This document shows positions 1-64,000 of a stretch of 64,000 nt of DNA, piece by piece. Positions within the stretch are counted from its first letter, which is position 1; each line of letters opens with the position of its first letter. The position numbers were made by a program, and so were the translations under genes. The notes under the pieces were generated by a model. It did not search any database. It was not told the origin of the DNA and worked only from the letters and a program-made list of their open reading frames with translations. Location of the stretch: NCBI GenBank assembly GCA_019828545.1, contig JACVRA010000183.1, forward strand, positions 62,001 to 126,000, given 5' to 3'. The DNA comes from Paracamarosporium sp. OC-R06-R3. Lineage: Eukaryota; Ascomycota; Dothideomycetes; Pleosporales; Didymosphaeriaceae.

Positions 1-1108
1 CTGTTCAATCCGACATTCAGTTTTCCCTTAAAATTGGGGTCCTTGTACCCAATGAGCTGGAGCAGGTCCGACAGGTAGTATGAGATGAGCGTGTTGCCGC
101 TCCATTGCGTGAACAGGCCGAGGAAGGAGCCGACGAGGACGCGCTTGCGCATTCCGGGTGTAGATACCATGTCCAACCAGGAACGCTGCGAGTGAGCGAG
201 CTCGAGGCGGATGGTAGATTCGATTTGCGCCATTTCGGCGAGAGCGAAGTCAGATTGCGAGTTACCTTCCGCATGATAATGAACGAGTATTCGATATGCC
301 TCTTCGCGTTTGTCTTTGGATATGAGAAACCGTGGTGATTCGGGGATGAAGCTGATGTGCGTAAGCAATGTTTAGAATACTAGGAAACGAGCAACACATA
401 CAAGATGAAAATGATCTGAAGCATTGATGGACCAGCTTGCAGTAATGACGGTATCCGCCATGCCCAGTCTGAGCCCAGGTGCTGCGTACCGAAAGACACG
501 CCTGCAGCAACGAGCGCGCCGACGAAGTAAAGAGCGTTGAAGAGGGACGTCATGATAGGGCGTTCTTTCGGATAGGCCAGTTCTCCCATGAGAGAGGAGC
601 CGGCAATGATGCAAAAGGGGATCCCAAAGCCTAAGATCCAGCGGGCGATCACATACATCGCAGCACTGATGGAAAAGGCCTGGACAAGCGATCCTACAAC
701 CATAATCCAGCTTCCTAGGAAGATAGCCCATCGTCTACCGAGTGTATCGTTAACCCAGGGTACGAATGGTAGTGCACAGATTGCTCCAAGATTGTAAGCG
801 GCCGAGATGATGCCCAGCAGCGCCCCGGCTGGGTGATTGAAATCTGCTCGTCGTCAACAATTTCCTTCATCTAGACTTTCTGAAACTGTCTTACAAGCTT
901 GCCAGGACGGCGAGATCTGGACTGTGTTGATCATTTGTGAGTCAAACCCACTGGTCATCTCGATGCCGATGCAGCATGGCAACAGCAACGCATACAAAAC
1001 CCTCAAGTTCCTCTTTCGATACCACGGTACAGGATCTTGTTGTACGATTCGCGTCAACACGGGGTCGGCCTGCTGTGCCTTTGCCGCATTGCCGATCGGC
1101 GGCGCCAT
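1..1108 (-). CDS. MFS sugar transporter, 3' part missing
   Basis: Predicted plasma-membrane sugar porter of the major facilitator superfamily (lactose permease/hexose transporter type). The start at 1108 opens a cytosolic tail, then the first helix with the family pattern around GIEMTSGFDSQM. Exon 2 encodes several further helices including RWILGFGIPF and GELAYPKERP, the usual loop motif of sugar porters. After the second intron comes the PESPRFL signature at the start of the central loop. Introns lie at 844-894 and 352-401, both GT-AG. The window edge cuts the gene within the C-terminal half, so the last helices are not visible. The family is clear, the substrate is not. No partner gene is visible on this side. 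Confidence 0.85.
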
Positions 1109-7198: not shown

Positions 7199-8672
7199 TC
7201 ATCCAGTCAGTATCTGCCTCTTTCGTTGTTCCTCTTCCCGAGCTAATGTTTGCGGACAAAGGTATGTTACAACTCTGAGCTGGTCTTTTGCCAGAGCACA
7301 GCTAACGTAGAAATGGATGTCTCCAGTACTCTCGAGGAATTTATCGCCACTGCAAAAAATATCAGTGTGCTATCAATAATCAAGAATAGTGAACTTACTA
7401 GATCTTTCGCAATGCCTTCTCGTAATTGTCCATCTGCGGCAACATTTTATCCGCGTTCTTCCTCGTTGAGAAATACTGTCGCAATCGTTTCAAGACCTCC
7501 GAGTCATTCTTACAGAAAGAAGCCGGCGAGATGTATACCTTGGGCGTCGTAGGCTTGCCTGCTTTGACGGTGAAATAGAAGCCAGGTCCTGCGCGCTCCA
7601 CTTCGGACGGTAGTTCATCTGGTGAATCTCCAATAAAGATTTTCCAGAAATCTTTCACATCAGCAATCGCTTCCTCACTGTACATCGACATATCGTATCG
7701 ACCCCCGAGCGTGAGCGCATCCATCAAGTAGTCGACAGTAGTGTTTGGTGCGCGTGTGTAAATCTTAATTCTCGACTGCTGAGGGGAGATCAGATCGAAA
7801 GAGAAGATACCGACGTCCATCTTCCACTTCAAAGCCGCCTCGTGGAGGTACTCCAACATGGGCTCGCACCGTAGCGACTTGTACTGCTCTGCAGGAAGCG
7901 ACTTGATTGCTTGAACGACAACTTCAAGGTTCGATAAACCAAGTTCCTGTGCCCTCAATCCCGGGAATATATACAGCTTAATAATTGGCCCATTGCGATC
8001 GATATCTCGCGTTACGAACGTACCCGCGACAGGTGCAAGCTCAAAGTTCAGCTTCTCTGTCATCTTGACGCGTTCCAACTCACTGGGCAAGACGGTGTCC
8101 ATGAAATGGTTGTACCATTCCAAATCCAGACCAGTCACCAAACCCTGGCTATCCAAATGCTTTATCCAGGCATCAGTCTCAAATCGATTGAACGGGTCGG
8201 CCTCCGTTCCAGCCATAGGTCCGATAGGCTCGAAGGATGTTCTCACGACCCCCTTGCCCTCGAGACCCCACTCCCAAGATAGGTCCAGTGGTGTGCCATC
8301 TGGTGTCTGCGGGCTCTTCCATCGTAGGTATCCGTTCTCATCGGGCGTGGGTCCGAGTTCGGGGACGATGTGGATAGCGTAGAAGAGCAGCTCGTTGTAT
8401 TGCTCTGCTTTCGAGTAACCGGCGTATTTCAGCAGCTCGGCCAGCTGGCTGCCGGTTTTATCCCACCAAAACTGGTGTTCAGGTTTGCGGAAGCTGATGG
8501 TAGAGCCTATGATGTCGAAAGGTTGCTTGGTCACGGTTTCATCTGAATGGGTCGCATGCTTAGAATCGGCCACTTTACGCTTGATAGCGTCAATGATACC
8601 GTTTCCGGTGACAGTGTGACTGCTTTTAGCATGCTCGTATTGAGCTTCAACTGGAAGTGCACTAGGAGCCAT
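7199..8672 (-). CDS. Aromatic prenyltransferase, DMATS family
   Basis: Predicted cytosolic ABBA-fold enzyme of the dimethylallyltryptophan-synthase family, which transfers a prenyl group from dimethylallyl diphosphate to an indole or other aromatic acceptor. 474 aa in two exons (8672-7399 and 7349-7199); the 49-nt intron has GTAAGT and GCAG ends. Family features: an N-terminal block with FWWDKTGSQLAELL, the ELGPTP stretch whose Glu binds the indole nitrogen in characterised members, central KLYIFPGL and C-terminal strands ending in DIHFYVS followed by TYLCP. The final exon restores the usual C-terminus, without which the protein would stop about 50 residues early. No NRPS, PKS or methyltransferase lies beside it, so the acceptor is unknown. 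The neighbour is an NTF2-like gene. Confidence 0.9.
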
Positions 8673-11600
8673 TTCAACGACTGAACTCAGCTAGCAACTC
8701 GATATGACAAACGGAGAACTCTAGCGTGGAAGAAGGAGAATGAAAGAAGAAAAGAAGGGCCAGCATATTGAGGGAGTTTAAGTTATTATATTAGCTCTAC
8801 GTGGATGTCAGCTCACCAACCCTGGTAATTCCGCCATTCAAACTCTGCTAATCCTCGCTATCCTCACCAAACCATACATTTGCAACGCTCCAAAAGGGGA
8901 TTGTTGACGAATAGAACCATATAAACCTACAGATTAGTAACTGTATAGCATTCAGTGCGTAGCTCCACTCTGGAGCCCGGAGCCGACCCGCAGGGGGTCC
9001 CACACCTGGCCCAACACCCATTCGACCTTTGCTAATGTTTTTTTCGTCCGTAAAATACATGTTGAGCATTTAACCATATTGACCTCGTAATGTAGAACAG
9101 GTGTTATAGCGAATGAGTGAAAGATTAGTCGCTTCTCGTTTTTACCTGTAAGCGTAGGATGAGATGGTGCAGAACATAGCCAATCCTGCGAAGGTGAGTA
9201 CCTTCCCGATTTGAAATAATATTCTACGTTACACACGATAAGCCGAGAACTTAAGCACTAGAATTTGTAGGCCCACAACGCTAAGTACGTTCTAGAAGCT
9301 CGGATCGTATAAAGGATTAAGGGGCGGGTTTTTCTTGCGCACCATACTTGCAAAATGACGGACCAAGGGATGTGGAATTCTGCTAGTTGAATTTGATGTT
9401 AGATTGATGATAAGCCGTGGTACGTCCGTCAAACGAAAGTAAGCCAATAATACAAAAGCTCCACATGGCAAAATACTGAAGGGTCATCTTTGCCCATTGT
9501 ACAAATGCAGCAGAGAAGCTCAATAGAAAACTACGCCACGGTAATGTAAGCTCACACCTCTCGGAAATGTCCGTTGACGAGCATAATATAAGCATGCGAA
9601 GTTCACGCAATAGGGCATCGTTGCGGTCCTAACATAATACAAATGTTTTGCAGCAACGGTGAACAAATGGCCAATCGGCCGTATTCGCCGTAATACATGA
9701 AAGAATCGCAAAACAATTCCTCGATCGAGTCATCTCGGATTTGTACACGTTATTGAGAGAAAAAATCACGTCAAAAGGCCGAACCATGGACAGCAGTCTC
9801 AACACAAAAGCCATTGAAAGAAGAAGGGATTGCGACGGCTATTTCATCCTTCAGGGAACCGAGTGAAGCCATGGAAGTAGTTCGACCATGCACTTGTTCA
9901 ATATGAGACTGGAATATCGGTACACGTCTAGGCACCCATCTCGGCCGTAATAATTGAAGCCAAGCCACATACATATTGCATATGACACACGGACCATGTA
10001 AGATGCCGTCGAAGTAAGCGAACGCCTGATGTGCAAATCCCGTTCAAGCATTGCTTAGCATAGACCTAACGATCTTGCGAATAGTCTGAGACTACTCGGC
10101 CTCGTCAAGCAAGCGATGTCCTAGGTTATTGGGCCTGCGTCATTTGTTGAACGGTAACCGAGGAGCGAAGCGCAAGGAGTTGCTGAATTCTAATTCAAGT
10201 ATAAAATCACAGTCTTACCAGCGTATTGAGCCCAGGTAGTTTACGACCCTTGTTGTAGAAAAATCTCCCTACAAGGATGGAAAAAGTTGCCTGGTCGTGT
10301 ATGTGTGTATCGCATGAGGGTAGCCTCTCGAACTTGATCATTAAACCACGGCGCGGCTCGCGGGACGCTAACGGCCCGCGTTCCCTTCGTGGATCCCTAC
10401 CAGTGGCGCAGTTCGTCTTTTTAGTCGTCACAAATACCACACACAAGCTATGCTGCATTCTTGCATATCAGCTATTCACAATGACAAAGCCGCAGACTAT
10501 GGGAACCATGAATTTTTTATTCGAATTTAAAGGTTAAGTTGACCAGACGATGTTAGTTCTGCCTACCATGCCTCATTCAGAAATGAATCAGGTTGAAGAA
10601 GACTGTAATTTTTGTTTTATTGAATGATGGAAACAGGAAACGTGCAGACTGGAGCGTGGCTGCCAAACACCAGACTATTTTTCTATGGCTCTTTTTAGTC
10701 CCTTTGCTCAAATCTCACAGGAAATGAAGAATCAGGAGGCGCTAAGCCTGAATCAATTTTGGCATGAAGTGAATTCGACCAAACCACGGCGCAGTGCCAA
10801 TTCAACCATCCCAACCACAAAGAGACAGAGAAAATACTGGACAACCATTAGGTGCCAGGCATAAAGCAACAGTGCAACCACTATGACGACTAAAGCTACT
10901 ATAGCCTTGTCGCAGCAATTGCGAAGTGTGCATTGGACAACGCATGAACATCCTAAATATACTCTCATGCATCTAGTGGAGAACGAAAATAGCAAATCTT
11001 TCTTATTGAAAATCTGATTATGAACCTACTGTGAGTCTGCACATAATAAGGAGCACCTACCAGGAGTAAGTATACAATATGTCGCCCCAACATGGATACA
11101 GTACTACAGTTGCAGTCATCGCGTTGCATAATACTCCAGTATGCGGATAAATAACGATGTACAGCCCAGGCCAATACATATAGCAAGTGTCCATATTCTG
11201 GTAACATATATTATTTGATTCATATTTAAATCGACTGCCTCTGCCATTCTTACTTGCTAATAAGAGATACCACAACCTTTGAACACTTCATTAATCTCTT
11301 CTCTCTTTAAACCTTCGCATTCGCAGGGTGTAGAGACTCACGACATAAATGCAGGAAGTACTATTGGAAGACACAAATCCAGAGAGTTGTTTCCGTTGAG
11401 TCTATGCAAGCGGAGCGCTGAGTGGCCAGTATTGACGGGTTACGTTCTTCGTGTTTGAAGGTGTGAGCGTGGCAAACGATTGCATGAAATATCGACCGCA
11501 GTAATTAGCATCGCGAAATACAAACAATCCATAGCGTATTTTATATGCTTGTAAATTGCTGATGTAAACTGTGACCTACCTCCGCCGAGACTTGGTTCAA

Positions 11601-35832: not shown

Positions 35833-37320
35833 TCATTCCTCCGCAGTATAATTCCACGCACGATTAATATCAAACGACTTTGGGAACCACGTTGGAGCTT
35901 CTCCCTCAGTCATCATCTGCACCAGCGCCTCAGCACTCCGGAAAGCCCACGCCATCCCATGTCCGTTCATGCACACCGATGCCCACAAACCATCCTCCTC
36001 AGGTAGCCCGCCAACCACCGGGAACCCATCAGGCGTGTTGCAAATGATACCCGTCCAGTCCTTGACGACCTTCGTGGTCTCGCCCCAGTTCTCGTACCCG
36101 AACACAACGCGGCCCACGCCATGCAAATCATCCGCGATATCTTGATTGATCACGGAGTCATCTGTGATGTTCCTCTCTCTTGTAGGCGAGAACTTCGTAC
36201 TTCCGCCCACGATGACATCGCCTGCGCCAATGTCGCCTGGAGCGCGGATGGCGATGTAGTTGTTTCCGCTGTGCAAGTCAGGGTAGGAGTGGCTTCGTCG
36301 GAAGACTGTGTTGTTTGAGGTGTCCTTCGATGGATGTACGGCTGCAACTTGGTTTCTTTGCGGGACGAGGAAGCCGGTTTTCGCAAGGCCTGAATGTAGC
36401 GCATTGGTGTAGCTGTTCGTGGCAAGGACTACTTGCTTTCCCTTGACGGTTCCGCGATCCGTCTTGACCTCCCATTTTGCGCCAGCTTTAGAGCTGTTGC
36501 TCACCTGATCGATACTCAACGCTATGGTCGTGGTCTGCAGGTTCAAACCCTTCTCCAGACTCTGCTCGAGTATTGCGCAGACAGTCAAATAGGGATTTTG
36601 CGTATGAGAAGTGTACGCCACAGCACCGAGAATCTGTGGCCACTTCCAATAGTCTCTTGCTGCCTGGCCTGCATACACCGTTCGCTTGTTGCTCCAAGGC
36701 CCATCGTTCGGTCTGCGTTCTTCCAGCTCATCTTGGAATTCCTTGATATCGACAGCCTTGTCGAACGCCTCTTTCGTCCAGTACAGATCCGCGGTTTCTA
36801 CATCTTGCCATCCTGATGAAACATTGTACGTGCGCACGAAATCGCGCACGTCATCCACGCAATCTTGCTCCATCTTGCCGATCCTCAGCGCCTCATCTTC
36901 GCCATAGAGCTCTACCCAGTCTTTGACTTCTTTCCAGTCGCCTGGTTTGCAGTGGCCGCCGTTGCGCCCCGAAGCTGCAGAAGCTGCGGTACGGGCCTCG
37001 AGCATCAAAATGGAGAGGCTTGGGTCACGTGATAACAACTTGAAGGCGATGGCTGCGCCTGAGATGCCAGAGCCAACGATAACATAGTCGAAGACCTCCG
37101 ATGTGGGAAGATCAGGGGTGGTGCGGAGGTTGGCGATGCGATGCGGTGGTTCTTGCCAGTATGAGACGGTAGGGTTGGGGTGCGGGAAGCCCGGGAGGAC
37201 TATCTGATCGAGGTTATCTCTTCTGGAGAGAAGAGCTTGTGATGGAGGTAGGGCGAGTGCTCGAACCTTAGGCACCAGAGCGGCAATGGAAAGAAAAGCG
37301 GTCGTTGAGGGAAGCCACAT
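35833..37320 (-). CDS. FAD-dependent oxidoreductase, DAO family, secreted or lumenal
   Basis: 495 aa, single exon. An N-terminal hydrophobic leader (MWLPSTTAFLSIAALVPKVRALA) looks like a signal peptide. The Rossmann FAD site is DYVIVGSGISGAAIAFKL near residue 80, followed by SGRNGGHCKPG, the usual flavin-contact region of this group. Near the C-terminus are KDWTGIICNTPDGFPVVGG and MNGHGMAWAFRSAEAL. The fold is that of glycine/amino-acid or gamma-glutamylputrescine oxidases, so oxidation of an amine or amino acid is likely; the substrate is unknown. Several N-x-S/T sites fit secretion. GATA-type motifs lie upstream at 37590-37851. Confidence 0.85.
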   Translation of the reverse strand: MWLPSTTAFLSIAALVPKVRALALPPSQALLSRRDNLDQIVLPGFPHPNPTVSYWQEPPHRIANLRTTPDLPTSEVFDYVIVGSGISGAAIAFKLLSRDPSLSILMLEARTAASAASGRNGGHCKPGDWKEVKDWVELYGEDEALRIGKMEQDCVDDVRDFVRTYNVSSGWQDVETADLYWTKEAFDKAVDIKEFQDELEERRPNDGPWSNKRTVYAGQAARDYWKWPQILGAVAYTSHTQNPYLTVCAILEQSLEKGLNLQTTTIALSIDQVSNSSKAGAKWEVKTDRGTVKGKQVVLATNSYTNALHSGLAKTGFLVPQRNQVAAVHPSKDTSNNTVFRRSHSYPDLHSGNNYIAIRAPGDIGAGDVIVGGSTKFSPTRERNITDDSVINQDIADDLHGVGRVVFGYENWGETTKVVKDWTGIICNTPDGFPVVGGLPEEDGLWASVCMNGHGMAWAFRSAEALVQMMTEGEAPTWFPKSFDINRAWNYTAEE

Positions 37321-38431
37321 CGTGACGATCGACCCTTAGGAGAGGTACAGCTATAGTAGTGGAAGAGGAGGGTGGCGCTTTCCGGTTATACTGGGAGCTT
37401 TATAGAGTTGAACTTATGGCTTAGGCGTGGTAGTCCAGTAGCTAAGGATGTCTACGGCACTTGGTAGACCGATGTGACCATGGTCCGCTCATCTATCCTT
37501 CATTAAGAAGGCCGTTGGTACCTTGCAGATACCGGATTGCTGTTCCCTGCATTTAGGATCTTGACGATCCTTGGCGACGGCCGATATCGCTATCCTCATC
37601 ACCAGATAGGATAAAGTGTACATGAGTTATAGAAAGCTCTACAGGGGCCTGTACATGATGCACCGCTAGGATGGTCCGTGGCTACTAGACAATTACGACT
37701 CTGTCCATGGCGACGGCAACAGTGGAATGGAATGTGGAAGTGCCCGAATAGGTAGTCGGTGGTTAACGGTTACCCCACCCCTGCCACGGATTTGGGCGAC
37801 TAAGGCGCCAAGAAGTGCGGGGCTTGGTCGTACCACTATCTTATCTTATCCTCACCCTCAAGGGTAGGTACGTCTACTTCGTATGACTTTCGGGTACCTC
37901 ATTGATTGATGAGGGTTGTGTTCTTGTGTTGCGGCGCCTTGCCATCAAGTGCAATTGTAGCAGGTCCTTAGATCCAGCTATACGACAATGTACTCATAGC
38001 GGCCTCCAGACTGTCACCTCGCTTCGTGTTACCGAAGAAGATTTCGTAAGCATTCCTTTCACTGTCTCACGAGATAAACAAGGCTCAAGCAGTGGCACGT
38101 TGACTGAGGGAAAAACACCCATTTCACCCCTTTTAACATCCCATCGTTCATCTTGCAACGTCATTTGGTGAATGTCATTGTTTGTAGGTGGTTCCACTGG
38201 AGTATTGTACAAAGGTTCAAGGCGAGATTGTCTCAGGTCCCACCTTCGTAAATCACCCAGAATGATTGGGTGAAAGCCCAGTCAGCACTTGCCCTAGGGG
38301 GACGGCCATACCTTCCTTGGTAAGCGAGCGCTTGGCCAGGTAACAATCACTGCGCAATAAAGTGTCCTGCGGCGCTGTTGATTGAACAACACGCACGCGA
38401 TACTGCCCACAAAACAGTGGCACGGTGAAAA
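37321..38431. promoter_or_regulatory. Divergent upstream region with clustered GATA motifs
   Basis: 1.1 kb between the divergent oxidoreductase and P450 starts. On the minus strand 37837-37851 reads as three overlapping GATA cores (GGATAAGATAAGATAG). Two more (AGATAGGATAA) lie near 37605-37615 on the plus strand. GATA factors of the AreA type bind such clusters in fungi, which would fit nitrogen control of an amine oxidase. No gene is visible here. Confidence 0.4.
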
Positions 38432-40122
38432 ATGCCTTCAGTATCTGCCAACATCGCCGTTGTAGGCGCAGCATTAGCTGCCATCTACATTGCGCTGCAA
38501 CTCCTCCTTCGCGCAACGCAAGATCCACGCGAACCACCTGCTGTCGAGACCCAACTCCCATTCATCGACCCCGCAGTTGGTCTGTCTAAACATACCTACT
38601 TCGCGTACCTGAAGTATGACCAATTCCATGCTCACGTTTTGTCTTGTTTACAAAGCAATGCTGACTATCGATAGGAAGCGATATGGACACCTCCCTATAT
38701 TCACACTGCGATTGCCAGGGCAAAGGTTCTACGTGATCAATGATCCGCAGCTTATCAACGTGGTTCAACGCCAACACAAGGTTTTGACTTTTCAGTCTGT
38801 CGAGGATGGCATGTCTCACAAGATGTTCAACCTCAGTCCTGTAGCCAAGGAACTTCAGAAGCATGAGGCCGATGCTTGGCGCAATGGACCTTCTCACGTA
38901 CACAGTCCTGGACACACACAATTCAAAGCTCTGGCACCTGGAAAGGACTTGGATCACATGAACCAAATCATGCTCAAATCTCTGGAAGAAAGTATGGATG
39001 ATTGGGTCCCTCAAGGACAACAGTCGCGCAGTACAAAGTTGTTTGAATGGGTGAAAGAGGCGATCATTGTCCCAACCACCGATGGCGTATATGGTCCCGA
39101 GAATCCATATCGCGACAGCGCCGTTCGCAAAACCTACTGGTCGGTTTTTATTCTCTCTTCATGAACCATACTAAAATGATAGCAGGACCTTCTTCTACGG
39201 AATACCTACGATGATCAAAGGAGGTCACTGGTTCGTGAAGGATAGTGTCGCGGCCAGCCAGTCTCTCGGTCACACTTTCGAAAACTATTTCCGACAAGGC
39301 GGCCACGAAAGATACTCCGGATTCGTCCAGAAGATATACGACTACTACACGGAACGAAAATACCCGTTGGAGGACTTCTCGCAACTCGTTGGTGGTAGCG
39401 GTGTGGCAGTTCTCGGCAATACCTTACCGTCAGCATTCTGGTTTGTCATTCACCTCTATTCGGATCGTAAGGTGTATGAGGCATGCCGGGAAGAGATACT
39501 TACGCAAGTTGTGCATACCAAGGATGAATCTGGCAATCCTGTGCGAACGGTAGACATAACTGCACTGAAAGTCTCATGCCCGCTGCTGCACTCCGCATTC
39601 AAAGAGGTACTTCGCGTGGAAGCAGTAGGTACTGGCGTCAGAGGAGTGGAAGAAGACCATATTCTCGATGGGAAGTACCTTCTGAAGAAGGACGCACTCG
39701 TCTTCATGCCTCTAACATCTCAGCACTTCGACCATGAGCGCTGGGGTGCCGACGCAGAAGAGTATTGTTACGATCGTTTCACGGACAAGACCCGTCCTCG
39801 TGTGAGCAACGTCTCCTTCCGCTCATTTGGTGGAGGAACTACGCTTTGCCCCGGCCGTCACTTCGCTACCACGGAGCTACTTGCGTTTGCGGCCATGCTG
39901 TTGTTGAGGTTCGAGATCGTGCCAAAAGACGGAAAATGGGTCGTCCCAACCTCGCTGAACGCTGAGATGACCACCAACATCCCTGCTCCGGATTTCGATG
40001 TCGACGTTGAGATACGGAAGAGAGCAGATGATGAAGGCGTGAAGTGGATGTGGAAATTGAGTGAAAGCGAGCATGCAGTCATGCTTGGAGACCAGGATGA
40101 GCATGGTAACGAGAAGGCTTAA
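38432..40122 (+). CDS. Cytochrome P450
   Basis: 527 aa in three exons (38432-38613, 38675-39139, 39186-40122). An N-terminal membrane anchor (IAVVGAALAAIYIALQLLL) places it in the ER membrane. The heme-binding loop FRSFGGGTTLCPGRHFA has its axial Cys at residue 437. The ExxR helix is HSAFKEVLRVEA. In the oxygen-binding helix region VGGSGVAVLGNTLPSAFW lacks the common AGxDTT; this and the GGGTTLCPGR loop recall the CYP7/CYP8-like group, where isomerase or sterol hydroxylase activity is known. The substrate cannot be inferred. Neighbours are a DAO-type oxidoreductase and a sulfite-oxidase-like gene, not an evident biosynthetic cluster. Confidence 0.9.
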
Positions 40123-45190: not shown

Positions 45191-46573
45191 TCAATCCTCC
45201 TCAGCACCATTGTATGCCACCAGATTCGCCGATTCCTTTGCATCAATAACTCGATCCGGTGTAGCCAATTCAAACACACGTGCCTTAACCTTCTCAGCAC
45301 TCAACGGGCCCTCGAGCGCACGAAGGTAGGAAACAAGGCCAGCAACATGCGGCGATGCCATCGACGTACCACTCAAGGACTGGGTGGCTGAGTCGGAAGT
45401 GCGGTACGAAGATACGATATCGGTACCAGGAGCGAATATATCTACGACAGGTCCGTAGTTTGAGCCGTATATGCCACCATACCTCGTATCGTTCTTTTGC
45501 AGGTTGCCTACGCAGATGACTTCGGGAGAGCGTGCAGGTGAGACCAGGGATGCAAGGCGGTTCTCGTTGCCAGCTGCGACGACGGCTAGGACCCCTTGCG
45601 CCCAAGCAGCGGTGATGGCGGCGTCCCAGGTAGCGGATGCGGCGCCCCCGAGAGACATATTGATAACAGCGGTGTTGGTGCGGTTCTTTGCTACGATGTC
45701 GTTGACGGCCCAATTGAAGCCGGCGATGACCGTGGACATCTGGCCTGAGGTCCCCTCAAATACTTTGACTGCAACGACGGTGGCTTTCTTAGCCACGCCG
45801 TATGTCTTTCCGACCATGATACCTGCTACGTGACTACTTGAAAGTCAGCCTCAGGGAAACGAGAAAGAAGCTGACGCTACTCACGTGCCATGGCCCGCGT
45901 TATCTGTATTCTTGTCGTTGACGGCATTATATCCCCAGACAGCTCGGGTGCCCTCAAACTCCTCGTGGGTCGTGCGTACGCCAGTGTCGACGATATAGTT
46001 GTACTGTCCTTGTCCAGAGCTTGAATCGTAGATATAGTCAGTGCTCTCATTTGTCCGAGAAGAAATGTCAGCAAGGCCCCAGTTCTCGGTGTTGCTCTCT
46101 GCGTAGAGTTAGCTAGCGATGCTACAATCGCGAACATGTTGGACCTTACGGGTGACAAAGTCGAACGTAGTCATGATAGTGTCTTCCTCGACAGTGAGTA
46201 CCTGCGCCTCTTTTAGACTTCATTGTTATCAGTGAAGTCCTGCAATAGCTACCTCTGGTAAACCTCGTAGTTCTTCAATCGTCGCCGCATCGAAAGCTCC
46301 CGCATAGCCCTTGAAAGTTCCGAAGCCATACTGACGCTCAACCCCTCCAGACTCTTGATCCTCCCCATCGCGCCGAGCGACACTGCGAGCGTGGATCTCG
46401 CGCATCTTCACAAAATGCGACGCGACAGTGGCGGCATCAGCATTCGGCTGAAGTGTGATGATCCATTTTCCAGGGACGACTTGACCAGCTGTGGCCGCAG
46501 AAACAGGCGCAGCTTGCGCAAGAAACGGAACTGCTGCTGCCGCAAGAGCAAAGAATCGCACAAAAGACTGCAT
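45191..46573 (-). CDS. Secreted subtilisin-like serine protease (S8, proteinase K type)
   Basis: 409 aa in four exons (46573-46253, 46201-46150, 46098-45885, 45833-45191); all three introns are 51 nt. A signal peptide (MQSFVRFFALAAAAVPFLAQAAP) is followed by an I9 propeptide with KWIITLQPNADAATVASHF and GYAGAF. The catalytic triad is complete: Asp in YIVDTGVRTTHEEF, His in GHGTHVAGI (split by intron 3), Ser in SGTSMASPHVAGL. The oxyanion Asn is in VVAAGNEN. Family members are alkaline proteases of the oryzin/proteinase K group, often abundant in culture fluid and known as allergens. No unusual domains. Confidence 0.93.
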
Positions 46574-51109: not shown

Positions 51110-57109
<6,000 letters not shown>

Positions 57110-58756
57110 ATGCGCTTTTCAGTAGCCGCATGTTCAGTACTGCTGGGCCTGGCCTATGCCAGTCCGCTTGCCCTGACGAGCCTCGACAAGAAGGCAGCCA
57201 CATTTACGAATCCCGTGCTCTGGGAAGACTATCCCGACCTTGAAGTCATTCGTGTTGGAGATGTCTTCTACTACTCATCATCAACCTTCGCTTTCTCTCC
57301 CGGTGCCCCAGTGCTCAAGTCCTATGACTTGGTCAATTGGACACCCGTCAGCCATAGTGTACCCACGTTAAACTTTGGCTCCAAATACGACCTTACCAAT
57401 GCAACAAACCGAGCCTATGTTCAAGGTATATGGGCTAGCAGCCTCCGCTACCGTGAATCCACGGATACTTTCTTGTGGATCGGATGCGTTGAGTCGAAGA
57501 AATCCTACCTCTGGACTGCAAGCAACACCGGAGCAAAAACCAATGCTGGCGAAGTGGCAAACTGGAATTGGAAGACCACTGCCTCAGTCGACAAGTGCTA
57601 CTACGACTGCGGTTTGTTGGTTGATGACGACGACACTATATACATTGCGTATGGGAGCACCAACATCATGGTCGCTCAACTCAACAAGGACGGCACTGCA
57701 GAGGTCAAATCGCAGAAGGTTTATACAGGCAGCACGTATATCGAGGGCGCTCGCATGTACAAGATCAACGGCTATTACTACATCTTTGTGACCAAGCCCG
57801 CGACTGACGAATGGGTCCTAAAGAGTAAGAGCCCATGGGGCCCCTACGAGATGAAAGTCCTCGTACAAAGCATCGCCGGCCCATTGGCAAACGCAGGCGC
57901 CTCGCATCAGGGTGGCATCGTCGGCACTAAAGACAACAACTGGCACTACGTTGCATTTATGGATTCATACCCCGGTGGTCGCATCCCCGTCGTCGCACCC
58001 ATCACATGGTCCTCAGACGGTTGGCCGTCCCTCGTCAAAGACAGCAGCGGTGCTTGGGGCAAATCATATCCCATGCCCGTCTCAACCAGCAAGACCGTCC
58101 CTCCGCCTACTGGTACAGACACTTTCCAGGGTACCTCCCTCAGCCACGAGTGGGAGTGGAACCACAACCCCGATACGAACAAATTCAAGCTTCTCGGAGG
58201 CTCCACGGGCGGTCTCCAACTCTCAGCTGCCACCGTGACCAATGACCTCTACACCGCGCGTAACACGCTCACACACCGGATCATCGGACCCAAATCCGCG
58301 GGCACGTTCCGCATAAATATCAGCAACATGGCCGACGGCGATCGCACCGGCGCAGCGCTCTTCCGCGATAACATGGCGTACATCGGCATCCACCGCGAGG
58401 GCACCACAAACAAACTCGTCTACGTGAACAACCTCAGCATCGACCTAAACAATGCTTGGAAAACCAACGCAACGGGCACCGTCGCAGCCAGCACGACGCT
58501 CGCTACGGGCGTCACAGATATATGGCTCAAAGTCCAGGCGGACATTACGCCGGCGTTTAACACGGCGACGCAGAGGACGACTGCGTTTTGGTATAGCACT
58601 GATGGGAGCAAGTTCACGCAGTTGGGGAGCGCGTTCAAGATGACGAATGATTGGCACTTCTTTACGGGGTTTAGGTTTGCGGTGTTTAATTTTGCGACGA
58701 AGGCGGTGGGTGGAGCGGTTACGGTGAAGAGCTTTGCGATGGAGAAGGTGGCGTAG
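57110..58756 (+). CDS. Secreted GH43 glycosidase (xylosidase/arabinofuranosidase type)
   Basis: 548 aa, no intron. I start at 57110 because MRFSVAACSVLLGLAYAS is a signal peptide; the in-frame ATG at 57068 would put 14 polar residues before it. The five-blade propeller domain (about 28-345) has the catalytic-base region NPVLWEDYPDLEVIRVGD, the middle Asp region CYYDCGLLVDDDDTIYIAYG and the acid Glu in YIEGARMYKINGYYYI. A C-terminal jelly-roll domain (about 360-548) matches the concanavalin-like module found on beta-xylosidase GH43 enzymes. It would release xylose or arabinose from plant hemicellulose outside the cell. Together with the GH26 gene it supports a plant-feeding lifestyle. Confidence 0.92.
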   Translation: MRFSVAACSVLLGLAYASPLALTSLDKKAATFTNPVLWEDYPDLEVIRVGDVFYYSSSTFAFSPGAPVLKSYDLVNWTPVSHSVPTLNFGSKYDLTNATNRAYVQGIWASSLRYRESTDTFLWIGCVESKKSYLWTASNTGAKTNAGEVANWNWKTTASVDKCYYDCGLLVDDDDTIYIAYGSTNIMVAQLNKDGTAEVKSQKVYTGSTYIEGARMYKINGYYYIFVTKPATDEWVLKSKSPWGPYEMKVLVQSIAGPLANAGASHQGGIVGTKDNNWHYVAFMDSYPGGRIPVVAPITWSSDGWPSLVKDSSGAWGKSYPMPVSTSKTVPPPTGTDTFQGTSLSHEWEWNHNPDTNKFKLLGGSTGGLQLSAATVTNDLYTARNTLTHRIIGPKSAGTFRINISNMADGDRTGAALFRDNMAYIGIHREGTTNKLVYVNNLSIDLNNAWKTNATGTVAASTTLATGVTDIWLKVQADITPAFNTATQRTTAFWYSTDGSKFTQLGSAFKMTNDWHFFTGFRFAVFNFATKAVGGAVTVKSFAMEKVA

Positions 58757-59357
58757 GGGTAGTAGAGTGTAGGTATGGATATGAATTAGAACTCGTCTCG
58801 AATTTTCGATATGCTTCTGTCCTCGTCGTCTGTTGGTCACGCTATGATCCTAAGTTGGTTTGCTAAATGATGAGCGATTGTAGGATACACAACAAGTGCG
58901 GGAATCTGCGGGAACAACGTATCCTTCCTAGCAGTGAATCAGTTCTATGTAGCTGCTCCTCAACATATTGCCATACCCCAACGACCCGGCGGGGATGGAA
59001 TCATCGTAAAGGGTACACAGAACAATATAGTTCATTACATGCGTCATGACACTACGATGGTGGTGAAATGTTCCCTTTGATAGACGACAGACCTAACATT
59101 TATTTCGAATGGATAGTTTCGGTAGCGACAATAGGGGGCTCAGAACTCAGTCAGATAGCAGAATTGAAAAGTCAATTTTAGAGCTGTACCACAGGATACA
59201 TGATGATTCAAACGCCCAGCGAAGGAGACATTTTCGATAGCAAGATAGCCGACCAAAATGAACGTTTCGAAAGAGATATATGAAACTACCACTACCGGGT
59301 ATGCACGCTCATAGAAGTGAAACAAGTTTAAGATGAACAGTTGACCAAATTCCATAT
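58757..59357. other. Convergent 3' regions
   Basis: 0.6 kb between the GH43 stop and the end of the peptide-precursor reading frame. Nothing recognised. Confidence 0.45.
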
Positions 59358-59414
59358 TCACTCCTGCGAGGGAATGACATCCTTCTTGTAGCTGACATCG
59401 AAGACATCAAGTGT
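59358..59414 (-). other. Third repeat-like segment behind the precursor stop
   Basis: The 19 codons after the precursor's TAA (59417-59415) stay in the same frame and end in TGA at 59360-59358. They keep the repeat pattern (VF-x-V-x-Y-K-K-D-V-I) but have no closing KR, as expected of a last repeat. So the TAA seems to cut off a former or conditionally used C-terminal repeat. A GT-AG pair (GTACCG donor inside repeat 2, TCAG acceptor inside this segment, 68 nt) could also join the two, so alternative splicing is a second explanation. Confidence 0.55.
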
Positions 59415-59708
59415 TTACGAGCGCTTCTCCAAGTCGCTGATGAGGTCCTTGCGGTACCTCACAGGAAAACCGGGGTTCTCCGCACGCTTCTGAGGGTCGT
59501 TGATCAAATCCTTCTTGTATTGCACAGCGAAAACATTTTCAGCCCTTGGGACTGTGTGAAGCCCAGTAAGATCAGTATCCGTGGTTACTGTGTAGAGCGT
59601 CAGTGCACGATGGAACAGTCCGAATCGAGTCAAGGGCTTACCCGGTAGGGCCAGAGGCAGAGCCAGAGCGGTGGGTAGGAGCCCGAGAAGGATGGCGGAG
59701 ATCTTCAT
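59415..59708 (-). CDS. Kex2-processed repeat peptide precursor, dikaritin-RiPP-like
   Basis: 97 codons unspliced. A signal peptide (MKISAILLGLLPTALAL) is followed by a short pro-region and two tandem repeats that each begin AEN and end KR. Both share F-x-V-x-Y-(K/R)-K-D-L-I before an acidic spacer (residues 56-75 and 76-96). KR is the Golgi Kex2 cleavage site, so each repeat would be cut out; a single Tyr per repeat suits the oxidative ring closure known from ustiloxin/phomopsin-type peptides. A GTAAGC donor at 59641 with an acceptor at 59588 (54 nt) or 59552 (90 nt) marks a likely in-frame intron in the pro-region, giving 79 or 67 aa. A third repeat-like segment follows the TAA stop. The divergent neighbour is a UstYa oxidase. 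The peptide's structure and activity are unknown. Confidence 0.72.
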   Translation of the reverse strand: MKISAILLGLLPTALALPLALPGKPLTRFGLFHRALTLYTVTTDTDLTGLHTVPRAENVFAVQYKKDLINDPQKRAENPGFPVRYRKDLISDLEKRS

Positions 59709-60632
59709 AGTAGCGGGAATGAAGCTTGGACAGTGGAAGCTCCCGTGTACGTGCTTTAAGATCAGATATAGCTTGGGGCACGGTGCTCTTATACACGTTC
59801 ACTGACGCACTTTGCCTCTCAGTGGGAAATGATCGGCAAGGCCCTTGAAGGAAGCGTGATACGCTTCGATAGTTTCTGAGTTTGGTCGTTGGTGTTCCGT
59901 TAATATCACCACAATTGATGGAGTACTTTTAAGCGACGTAAGATTGGTCTCACTGAAAAGTGGAGGTTCGTGGGGTGAGGTTTTCAGTGGAGTGGGCAGA
60001 TCCCAGCTTTATGCTACGTGTTCGACACAAATAAGCAAGTGTACTATCTCAGCAACAAAACCTGGAACATCCCTTCAGCGCTTCACCACCTTGTTGGCGA
60101 TACGCATTTGGCAAGTAGCTTGTGTAGGCGCCCCCAAATTGATAGGTCGGCAACCCCGCGCTGCAGCAGCCAATATTGATCCAACAGACGGTTTAGTTCG
60201 AATGTCCGCCACTATACTGCTTGGCTGCTTCAGCTATCTCGGATGGCGAAGTGATCGGTGGCCGGATCCTGGAGCTTGCGCGTTTAGGCACAAGCGCTCG
60301 TAAACGGTAAATTTGCGTCCGAGTCCGAGACGCCGCACGTATGTGTCTAGATGCCATGAGAGTAGTCATGGACGCCAGCGAGCTGACTGAAATGGTAAGC
60401 GGTAGTGCGATGGCATCCCTCGCCGATTATATGATCAGTTTAGCCACGCGAAAGCAGGAAAAGGTTCCTGAGGATTAATCCAAGATTGCGTTACCATTAA
60501 GCGATTTCAAGGTCTTGGGGCTGAACTCCAAACGGTCGGATGTGGCTCGTGTACCAATACTGTAGCATCACATCCCCCTTTGCCCCATTCCTTTGGACGA
60601 CCGACAGCCTTTACAAGCACAGCACACCAAAA
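59709..60632. promoter_or_regulatory. Shared upstream region of precursor and UstYa genes
   Basis: 924 nt between divergent starts, so joint regulation is plausible. Within it, 60341-60477 is a 45-codon open frame ending in a Met/Ala/Glu-rich segment (ELTEMVSGSAMASLADYM). With interrupted frame upstream it may be a relic of a former gene; it is not called as a gene. Confidence 0.45.
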
Positions 60633-61583
60633 ATGGCAGGATATGTCGCGCTGCCGTCGAAAGAAGACGATCCCATTGACTGTATAGGTTCTCTCGATTC
60701 CGATCCAGAGTTGGAAAACGGTTCGAATTCGGTGGCGACCCATCCAAGCCCTGCAGTAAGGTTGTGGCCATGGTGCGTACACCTGCTTGTTTTCGTATTG
60801 TCTGTGTCAGCTGGATTGCTCGTGCAGCTCGTGCAGCACCCCAGCAGATGCATGTCGATCAAAGGTAACTTCAAAGACGCACAGACGGGAATGACTGATA
60901 ACATATGTAACAGACAACCTGCTTGGTGAACACCCATGGGACCATACGGTCAGATTCGATGGATCCCTCAGTCGGAACTCATCTCGGTTTAAAGGCCCTC
61001 CTTCGAAAGAAATTGAAAAACTTTGGGAAGACCTCGTACCTCGTAGGTTGAACGCAGCCCCCACGGAACAGACCACTAGATTGACACTGAAACAGAACGC
61101 CTGCTGGTCATCCCTGAGGATGTCTTCCGAACCATCAACACCTCCAAACATTCGGTCAAAGCTCCAGCTAGCCTAGGCAAAGGACGACTTGCAGCATTCG
61201 AAGGGTTTCATTATATCCATTGCTTGCACAATCTGTGGAAGACCCATTATCCGGAATACTATACCGAAGAGGCCAAATTCGCAAGAGAGCATCGCGACGA
61301 GTGGCTGGAACATGTCGACCACTGCGTGGATATGCTACGCCAGAAGCTCATGTGCGATGCTGATCCGGGGCTCATTACCTATAGCTGGTTGAAGAACCAC
61401 TATAATCCTCATCCCAACTTCAATGTTGAGCACAAGTGTCGTAACTACAATACGCTCTTAGACGCGTCAGCAAAATACGGTGTGGACCTAAGGCTTCTCC
61501 CGGAAGAAGGAATAAGGCGACCTGAAGGCGAGAAGGTGGTTGATTTCGTGGAGCCTCCGTTCGATCCGTTAGCTGCTGAATAA
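60633..61583 (+). CDS. UstYa-family (DUF3328) oxidase
   Basis: 282 aa in three exons (60633-60864, 60914-61042, 61096-61583). A cytosolic tail of about 45 residues and one membrane helix (LLVFVLSVSAGLLVQLV) are followed by the catalytic domain on the lumenal side. The two family-defining HxxHC motifs are present: HYIHC starting at residue 159 and HVDHC starting at residue 193, the latter followed by LRQKLMCDADPGLITYSW. Known members (UstYa/UstYb, and those for phomopsin, asperipin and victorin) oxidise peptide side chains, for example closing ether rings at Tyr. The gene stands next to, and divergent from, the KR-repeat precursor, which is the expected substrate. No tyrosinase, methyltransferase or second UstY gene is in view. 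Confidence 0.9.
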
Positions 61584-62465
61584 ACATGGTACGCGTCGCG
61601 TTGTTTGCCAAAAGCATCATGTCGCAGAGAAGTTCCCCTCATAGCTCCCTAAGACCTTTGGCTAAAGAACGGCGGAAAGTGTCACCATGTGAGACGCGCA
61701 GACGTTATCCGCCACATGGGCATAGTATCGCGTCTGTTGGTGTTGGCTGGCTGTGTCGAATGGCAGCTCGTATCCCACGTGTAGGATTCATCATGCATGC
61801 AGCTCTGCCGCTAATCACGGCTCTTATCATCCGTAATGTGGAATAGGATTGAGACATAACAAAGTAGCCTGTGACTATTCTAAGAGTCTATCTGTGGAGA
61901 AAGCGGTGATTTCGTTCATTTAGAAAAATCGCGGGATTAAGGGATGGTCTCCCAAAAGTCGGCGGGCCGGCTTTAACGTTCACGCTTACAGTCGTTCACC
62001 GAAGCGAGAAGCGAGCGCTTACTTGCTAAACTAAAGGCAGTTAGTTTTACGTTACACGAGTACGCACTTCTTTAGTGTTTCCCGAGACGCTCGCGAGGTG
62101 AACGAATCATACTCTTCACATCTTTACACGAGGCAAGGCCCCACAGCAAAGCAATACCCTGGTCCCTCCCACGTTCTATTATACGGCGCCACCGACTGCC
62201 ACCAACGCCCGCAATACGCGAACGCGAACGCCCTTCACCGCAACCGTGGAGCTGGACTGGCGCGATTTCCAGCGAGAATAAGCCTCTGCTGCCGTTCCAA
62301 CATTGCCCTGCATCTTTCGGTTTCCATGCTCCATCCTCCGAGAGTCAAGGGTGGCCCTCCACATGTTGGCTCCACCTTTCATCTGTTGGATATTTCCGCC
62401 TTCATTTGCTAAACCGGACATCTGGTTTCCCATGTTGATCGCCTCCAACTCTGATTCCGCCAAAA
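61584..62465. other. Intergenic
   Basis: 0.88 kb between UstYa and the seven-helix gene. Short frames without domains; no further precursor-like repeat frame was seen here. Confidence 0.45.
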
Positions 62466-63638
62466 ATGCATACACTTCAGCTCCATGAGGTTATTGTAAG
62501 TTGGCCCTTTTCTGTGACGTGGCTTTGTACACCGAATGCTGATTGTTACGGGTGTAGGCAACTGCGTGGTCGCTGACCGTACTTGCGCTTCTGGTGACGC
62601 TTGGCCGCTTTGCGATACACTGGCATCGCCGTCAACGCATAGCATGGGATGATTTCTTCAATGGGCTGGCGATGACCTTTCTATTGGCCTATACCGGAAC
62701 CTATCAGGTATACGGACCGACAGACTACACCAAGCAGCTGTATGCTATGGGCCTAATCAACGAAGACGATGTCATTCACAGCGACGAAAAGAGAAATGCT
62801 AAGTACAATGCTGCGAATTCGCTGCTTTTCTGGTGTATCATTTATGCCGCCAAAGCAAGCTTTCTAGCATTGTACTGGCATATATTTTCATTCTCAACCA
62901 AGTTCCGGATCGCATGGGCTGTGACGACAGCGTATATCCCAACTAGCTTTGCAATCACTTTTATGTGGTCGTTCTTCTTGTGTGGCAATCCTAAATATTT
63001 TCCGGACACTCAACGTACGTTTTGTAACGATCAGCATATGGGTTTGTACTTACTGCCCGGTAGCCCAATGCCATGAGCATGCTCCAGGTATGGTAGTACC
63101 AATGTTGGCAGCCTGGTGCGCGTTGGATCTGATAGGCGATATTCTTTGTGAGCTATTTCTCTCATTGGCTCTCAAAATTCCAACTAATTATCTCTCAGTG
63201 GCTGCCCTCCCTTTGGCGATGCTCAGGCCACTTCTCATGCGAACGTCACAGAAGCTTGAACTAGCCATCATCTTTTCACTTGTAGCCATCAACATGGTGC
63301 TTACAATTCTCCGGACCGTCTACAGCATCGATGTAGATCTTGCAAGATTTCCTGACCGGAACATATTATGGTGTTTTCTACAACCAACTGTCGCGGTTAT
63401 CGTGTGTGCATTACCATGCTACCGGGGTATCTTGACGCGCAAGAAGCCTGATTCGTTGCGTGATGGCGAACTCAATTCCAGCGAATCGGAGTTTGCAGAC
63501 ATCTGGCAGCGGTACCTGGTTAGCATTGGAGAGCATAAAGATGGAAGTAGGGGAGACAACGAGAAGGATCTTGAAGCTGGCGCTATGAGTGGCTCGTCTG
63601 GTACACAGACCCAACTATCGGAGATTTCAAGAGCTTAA
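62466..63638 (+). CDS. Seven-helix integral membrane protein, fungal rhodopsin-like (SAT4/PTH11-related)
   Basis: 336 aa in four exons (62466-62495, 62558-63014, 63064-63147, 63199-63638). Family marks: helix 1 ends in LGRFAIHWHRRQRIAWDDFF, a tryptophan-Asp-Asp turn typical of the group. Then FWCIIYAAKASFLALYWHIF, a loop with a lone Cys (LCGNPKYF), helix 5 ALDLIGDILLAALPLAMLR (joined by intron 3), and a last helix ILWCFLQPTVAVIVCALP. The cytosolic tail of about 80 residues is acidic and Ser-rich. Such proteins are numerous in plant-associated fungi; some act as surface receptors, and one gave its name to a trichothecene cluster. It is unclear whether it belongs to the adjacent peptide locus. 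Confidence 0.82.
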
Positions 63639-64000
63639 TATAGGATTGCATATTAACGACGTAACGGCCTGCATAGACTCATTTAGAATTCATTTACCGC
63701 AAGGACCAACAACACATTATGCAGGGCGCAGTGGGGCGCTTGAAGATGGGGTTACTGATCTAATCGGATCTCGGGTGGTTGTGCGTGCAGGTCGCTTTTA
63801 CGCACGTGTTACGAAGATGCAAACATCGAATTATCAAGAGTCCGATCAGGCTGAATTGGGAGCACGTGATGGTAATTTTGGATCAACACATGATGATCTT
63901 TCCTTAGGAGTGCTATCGTGATGTTTAATAACACTTACCGTTCACTTGATACTGACTCATATTGAAGTAGGATATGGATTTTAGGCCAGCTTTTTACTTT
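63639..64000. other. Right window end, no gene seen
   Basis: About 360 nt after the membrane-protein stop. No gene or repeat recognised. Confidence 0.4.

Follow-up and report, generated by a model that had tools for sequence, protein, structure and literature searches.

Can a fungal locus for oxidised cyclic peptides consist of little more than a repeat precursor and one oxidase gene? This question is raised by the right-hand part of the 64,000-nucleotide stretch analysed here (the window), which comprises bases 62001-126000 of contig C69 (JACVRA010000183.1) in the genome of Paracamarosporium sp. OC-R06-R3 (43.1 Mb in 337 contigs). A preliminary description had placed at 59358-61583 a minimal dikaritin-type locus for ribosomally synthesised and post-translationally modified peptides (RiPPs), possibly of a new class, in which a KR-repeat precursor diverges from a UstYa oxidase. 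We consider it likely that the locus is indeed a minimal dikaritin-type (UstYa/DUF3328) RiPP locus and that an adjoining gene for a seven-transmembrane (7TM) protein belongs to the same functional unit. The precursor-oxidase pair remains the best reading, but the description was incomplete, since the 7TM gene adjoins the pair and one of the three cores lies behind a stop codon. Our reading is based on the open-frame gene structures, the conservation of repeats and cores, the equal contig sizes reported for two homologues (P0001 and P0007) and the neighbourhood of UstYa and 7TM genes in other fungi; Kex2 cleavage, oxidation and cyclisation of the window peptide would be expected by analogy with known members of the family.

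The precursor gene lies on the minus strand, where an open reading frame (ORF) running from 59708 to 59415 encodes 97 amino acids unspliced and 67 after predicted splicing. Exon 1 (59642-59708) encodes a signal-like peptide, MKISAILLGLLPTALALPLALP, recognised by eye, with cleavage guessed to fall after ...ALA. It is followed by a predicted 90-nt phase 1 intron (59552-59641, GTAAGC...CACAG) that keeps the frame, which is open even when unspliced. Exon 2 (59415-59551) carries two Kex2-type units and a TAA stop (59417-59415). The predicted spliced product passes from its signal-like start through a VPR joint into two KR-ended AEN...KR units, AENVFAVQYKKDLINDPQ-KR (unit 1, 59484-59543) and AENPGFPVRYRKDLISDLE-KR (unit 2, 59421-59483), and ends with a final Ser; each unit holds one Tyr and both align with the homologue P0001. 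The signal-peptide precursor with single-Tyr AEN...KR units that had been described is thereby confirmed, whereas the extent given to the repeats, down to 59358, holds only in part: a third core-like unit (59358-59414, minus strand), made of TLDVFDVSYKKDVIPSQE (59414-59361) and a TGA (59360-59358), exists in frame, but it sits behind the TAA and outside the open frame, while its counterpart in P0001 stays in frame. A 27-nt GT...AG stretch (59418-59392) spans the TAA ahead of unit 3; it was judged too short for an intron in a fungus. In this strain, the open frame no longer takes in the third core.

We ruled out chance repeats by residue shuffling and by homology. The raw BLOSUM62 score between units 1 and 2 is 49, reached by 0/20000 shuffles; it is 41 between units 1 and 3 (2/20000) and 35 between units 2 and 3 (5/20000). 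A detector of KR-unit repeats gave the window locus a score of 49, barely over noise (shuffle maximum 43 for its own piece and 45 for any piece). P0001 is stronger proof of a precursor than this detector: it is a 103-aa protein retrieved from 5.8 billion proteins at E 1.7e-12, the one candidate of four within E 1. P0001 has three in-frame units, GLFAVRYRKDLINDPQ-KR, GIFAVRYSKDLISDPE-KR and GIFAVSYRKDVIASQE, the last preceded by a spacer of ~28 residues, and the C-terminal end of GIFAVSYRKDVIASQE resembles that of the stranded third unit of the window. It begins at an internal Met and lacks a signal peptide ahead of the first unit, which would fit an intron parting the signal exon from the units there too. 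The core common to both precursors is F-x-V-x-Y-x-K-D-[LV]-I, with one Tyr in every unit; in the window it reads F-x-V-x-Y-[KR]-K-D-L-I. Because P0001 keeps all three units in frame, three cores are the probable ancestral state of the precursor, and this strain reads two of them. The F-x-V-x-Y portion may resemble part of a core of GigA, the repeat precursor of the epichloecyclins. A search for a paralogous precursor elsewhere in the genome gave the locus itself only (1 candidate scored), and no NCBIfam family was found for P0001, for the UstYa relative P0002 or for the 7TM relative P0050.

The precursor shares a divergent intergenic region of 924 bp (59709-60632), the 0.92 kb first estimated, with a UstYa/DUF3328 gene on the plus strand (60633-61583; 282 aa), whose three exons (60633-60864, 60914-61042 and 61096-61583) join in one frame across introns of 49 and 53 nt. 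A gene broken by the frame change at 61043 is ruled out, since these two consensus introns restore a single frame. The protein matches PF11807 with 132.4 bits (cut-off 25) and does carry the two HxxHC motifs ascribed to it, HYIHC and HVDHC. A DUF3328 protein with two such motifs is the class-defining enzyme of the dikaritins (PMC12048977), and this feature is present in the window UstYa. The protein has a single N-terminal hydrophobic helix, and the predicted structure of the Bimuria relative P0002 shows an N-terminal helix (residues 39-63) such as would span a membrane. An alignment of 45 relatives, many incomplete, has 13 invariant columns, with H197 and C198 (second motif) among them, while H160, H163, C164 and H194 are conserved in at least 90%; a relative from Paraphaeosphaeria sporulosa is 82% identical. 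With P0002, a sequence search of the PDB (E up to 1) gave no match and a fold search using a middling model (pLDDT 70.9) no meaningful match. The preliminary description named a lack of homologous repeats near UstYa in related species as a refutation; as far as this could be tested, the outcome favours the description. P0001 and the UstYa homologue P0007, which is 83% identical across 56% of the query, have the same reported contig size, 8067 bp, and this equality is the sole evidence for a linkage of precursor and UstYa in a relative.

How close does this bring the locus to known systems? Like the dikaritins ustiloxin, phomopsin, asperipin-2a and victorin, it pairs a DUF3328/UstYa protein bearing two HxxHC motifs with a multi-core precursor that has Kex2 sites and is taken to be secreted, and its precursor has, as theirs do, a leader-like start (by eye) followed by a repeated core; asperipin-2a, too, has just one DUF3328 gene (PMC7329392). 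Unlike them, the window has only two in-frame cores, the core pattern given above and a 7TM neighbour. The epichloecyclins of Epichloe (GigA, KexB and a DUF3328 protein) similarly come from a small cluster, of four genes there, in which a repeat precursor is accompanied by a single DUF3328 gene (PMC7317419), and likewise have a Tyr inside the core (PMC9233826); however, no kexin gene was recognised beside the window pair, and GigA has imperfect 27-residue repeats. With Kex2-processed repeat proteins (KEPs) the precursor shares a signal-like peptide and alike units parted by KR. The KEP survey called for a signal peptide by SignalP and for at least three repeats in tandem, each 8 aa or longer and bounded by Kex2 sites (PMC7329392); the window precursor, with two in-frame units, falls short of this rule, whereas P0001 shows three. 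In that survey, 1758 KEPs have a DUF3328 gene nearby, DUF3328 genes peak at the gene adjoining the KEP gene, and Tyr occurs in 65.6% of the repeats of DUF3328-linked KEPs versus 38.2% without such a gene (PMC7329392).

By analogy with these systems, the 67-aa precursor would enter the secretory pathway, where Kex2 would cut after each KR and a carboxypeptidase would trim the dibasic tail. Membrane-bound UstYa would cross-link the single conserved Tyr of each F-x-V-x-Y-[KR]-K-D-L-I core to a nearby side chain, and the outcome would be two related secreted cyclic peptides. With KR removed, the calculated neutral monoisotopic masses of the two units are 2091.064 and 2218.138 in linear form and 2089.048 and 2216.123 after a loss of 2 H, although shorter, trimmed forms are likely. 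The 7TM neighbour could act as a sensor, regulator or membrane partner.

The genome as a whole gives 75 PF11807 exon matches, which merge into about 47 loci. The repeat survey covered 20 of these 47 (about 9.9 kb each) and the window; three further loci, L038-L040, were read in smaller pieces. Strong KR-repeat precursors were found at 11 of the 20 other loci (L012, L014-L018, L020, L022 and L025-L027), with best-frame scores of 79-124; the best frame of L012 scores 86 and overlaps a likely coding frame scoring 77. The remaining nine score 16-40, five control pieces of the window 17-36, and the shuffle maximum of any piece is 45. Cores vary between loci, for example TEFAPWYRATNILPASD, ADPQWYDLTYID and TNFEIDTILDVNR. 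At L039 (C112, 2546-2747), a short ORF for a secreted product lies between a PF20684 and a UstYa match. It has one KR, and its core, EEIDISHHGTKP, contains HH; judged by its sequence, it is a further minimal precursor candidate, which the detector missed (score only 26), so that the count of precursor-bearing UstYa loci is a lower bound. By this measure, the genome is rich in peptides of the KR-repeat/UstYa type. The suggestion of a new class is not supported, given precursors with other cores at no fewer than 11 of the 20 UstYa loci and the KEPs already known with a nearby DUF3328 gene (PMC7329392). Two-core precursors escape mining by the three-repeat rule of that survey, and loci of this sort are probably under-counted; searching for a UstYa gene that adjoins a small secreted ORF may serve mining better than repeat count does.

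The 7TM gene (62466-63638; exons 62466-62495, 62558-63014, 63064-63147 and 63199-63638) lies downstream of UstYa on the same plus strand and encodes a 336-aa seven-helix protein of the Fung_rhodopsin family (PF20684, Pth11-like). A gene broken near 63014, where the frame changes, was considered and rejected: a 49-nt intron model keeps residues present in relatives, whereas a 97-nt model loses them. Relatives in Karstenula rhodostoma and Bimuria are 85% and 82% identical; among named organisms, it is Didymosphaeriaceae and nearby Pleosporales that supply the nearest relatives of the genes at the locus. The protein matches PF20684 with 81.4 bits (cut-off 27) over residues 27-270, and the predicted structure of its relative P0050 shows seven long helices and a further one at the C-terminus, so that both the domain and the seven helices of Pth11-like proteins are present; PF20684 is given as the domain of Pth11-like (class XIV) G-protein-coupled receptors (GPCRs) in PMC13308352.

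The pairing of the two genes recurs outside this strain. Between 47 UstYa and 25 7TM relatives, four pairs have equal reported contig size, in Bimuria, Pleosporales sp. CAS-2024a, Massariosphaeria and on one 15745-bp contig; gene names are consecutive in Bimuria (BU23DRAFT_551264/551265) and CAS-2024a (ACEQ8H_007173/007174), but not in Massariosphaeria (490986, 491140). In Chlorociboria aeruginascens, UstYa and Fung_rhodopsin domains follow each other in this order within a single predicted protein, P0034, whose UstYa part shows 43% identity and whose 7TM part shows 42%; either the fusion is genuine or two neighbouring gene models were merged. Within the genome, we compared distances between UstYa loci (54 of the 75 PF11807 matches, merged to 47, leaving out further exon pieces and a weak C284 row) and 145 PF20684 positions (142 listed, second exons dropped, plus the window 7TM, C134:38155 and C96 added by hand). 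PF20684 matches occur within 5 kb of 7/47 UstYa loci (6/46 without the window), with 1.6 expected if uniform, a null that is too kind because fast-evolving genes cluster. Tyrosinase occurs within the same distance of 1/47 loci (0.2 expected) and, among the matches listed, cytochrome P450 of 0/47 (1.0 expected). The PF20684 and P450 lists are lower bounds, because only the best 150 of 324 and the best 92 of 353 candidates were scored. Six of the seven PF20684-near loci were read wholly or partly: a precursor candidate was seen at three (the window, L017 and L039) and none at the other three (L031, L038 and L040). The 7TM protein probably forms one functional unit with UstYa and the precursor, and may sense the peptide, sense a cluster-inducing cue or protect the producer. 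Among the literature matches listed, no paper joins UstYa/DUF3328 with Pth11 terms; PMC7099791, which is outside that listing, mentions both, its PTH11-type GPCR being one of the many genes in a RiPP region of T. reesei.

That the 7TM gene has nothing to do with this peptide, and is there as a bystander or as a sensor generic to clusters, is a real possibility, somewhat short of an even chance. The PF20684 family is large in this genome (at least 160 exon matches), the UstYa-7TM pairs of the named relatives are seen without a known precursor, and 327 Pth11-like receptors lie in other biosynthetic clusters of 212 species, most often near polyketide synthase or non-ribosomal peptide synthetase-like genes (PMC12842992); recurrence of the UstYa-7TM pairing across genera speaks against this reading. 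We regard as distinctly doubtful the bolder proposal of an autocrine cassette, in which the Kex2-released, UstYa-modified peptide would be the ligand of the adjoining Pth11-like 7TM protein and the three genes a portable self-sensing unit. It has a parallel in Ste2 and alpha-factor, also a Kex2-released peptide and a 7TM receptor, and in structure comparison (VIA-align) the best alignment of the 7TM model is with Ste2, but with only 9% identity; in the window, the receptor-like gene is physically linked to the peptide gene. Such a cassette, if true, would give a signalling role to a fungal RiPP family known mostly for toxins, and its peptide would be, to our knowledge, the first known ligand of the orphan Pth11-like class. 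The UstYa-7TM pair in any case unites two questions, namely which GPCRs perceive KEPs with a STE13 signature, as posed in PMC6339444, and what binds Pth11-like GPCRs, whose ligands are given as unknown in the three species named by PMC13308352.

Two other explanations concern the peptide itself. It is unlikely that the locus is decaying, its precursor losing cores and little or no peptide being made in this strain: the TAA ahead of unit 3, the absence of the ~28-residue spacer of P0001 and the departure of unit 2 from unit 1 and P0001 at FPV and DLE would fit decay, but two full KR-flanked cores remain, with core residues conserved relative to P0001; the signal exon and the frames of UstYa and the 7TM gene are all open, and the splice sites fit the consensus. 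Improbable, in our view, is a linear signal- or effector-like peptide, processed by Kex2 and left unmodified while UstYa serves another substrate. UstYa is the divergent neighbour of the precursor, with the linkage also reported in the relative that supplied P0001 and P0007, and every unit of both precursors retains its one Tyr; against this stand the long, charged core, the 6120 of 7878 KEPs without a DUF3328 neighbour (PMC7329392) and several agaricomycete KEP peptides that are linear or minimally modified by mass spectrometry (PMC9769878).

Several observations weigh against a minimal dikaritin-type locus with an integral 7TM gene, the reading we nonetheless prefer. In length and in charge, the core exceeds the short ones of ustiloxin or asperipin. 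Only two cores are in frame, under the three-repeat rule of the KEP survey, and the precursor gene may be decaying because its third core sits behind a stop; the search of 5.8 billion proteins yielded the single relative P0001, whose linkage to P0007 is one of contig size. By the repeat detector, no KR-repeat precursor accompanies the best UstYa paralogue of the genome, C210 (locus L028; 50% identity over the best piece), and none was found at L031 (C167), L038 (C175) or the part of L040 (C23) that was read, all with UstYa and a PF20684 match. The UstYa and 7TM relatives of Lojkania and Polyplosphaeria lie, among the matches listed, on contigs of differing size, and adiponectin receptor 2, which is not a GPCR, equals most GPCR scores in the VIA-align list. 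Tailoring genes expected from the dikaritins were also not seen: among the matches listed, contig C69, which ends 599 bp past the right side of the 7TM gene, has neither a tyrosinase (PF00264) nor an S41 peptidase. Of 30 proteins run against Pfam, 28 were stretches or gene models of the window; they cover part of its genes, and no methyltransferase appeared among them, no genome-wide search being made. Near neighbours scanned with Pfam included no methyltransferase, transporter or peptidase up to the nearby contig end. That neither tyrosinase nor methyltransferase stands beside the pair agrees, within these limits, with the preliminary description; functional clusters without one or more of the five genes of the older definition are reported (PMC12048977).

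The contig ends 237 bp past the window, and right-hand neighbours beyond the 7TM gene are out of sight for this reason. Between UstYa and the 7TM gene, no inverted repeat was found in 61600-62470 and 61900-62200 is single copy, which rules out a repeated element there; Rfam at gathering thresholds gave no known RNA family in 56000-64000. The left flank consists of ordinary neighbours, an AROM (pentafunctional shikimate-pathway) gene at 51141-56061 and a GH43 beta-xylosidase-type gene at 57068-58756. Further left, a subtilase (S8) piece lies about 13 kb from the locus (45194-45844), and a cytochrome P450 piece (39175-40119) and a FAD-dependent oxidoreductase piece (35836-37335) are found within roughly 13 to 24 kb of it. 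At the left end of the window, a gene of the tryptophan dimethylallyltransferase family (7401-8690; PF11991, 292 bits) may belong to a separate prenylating cluster.
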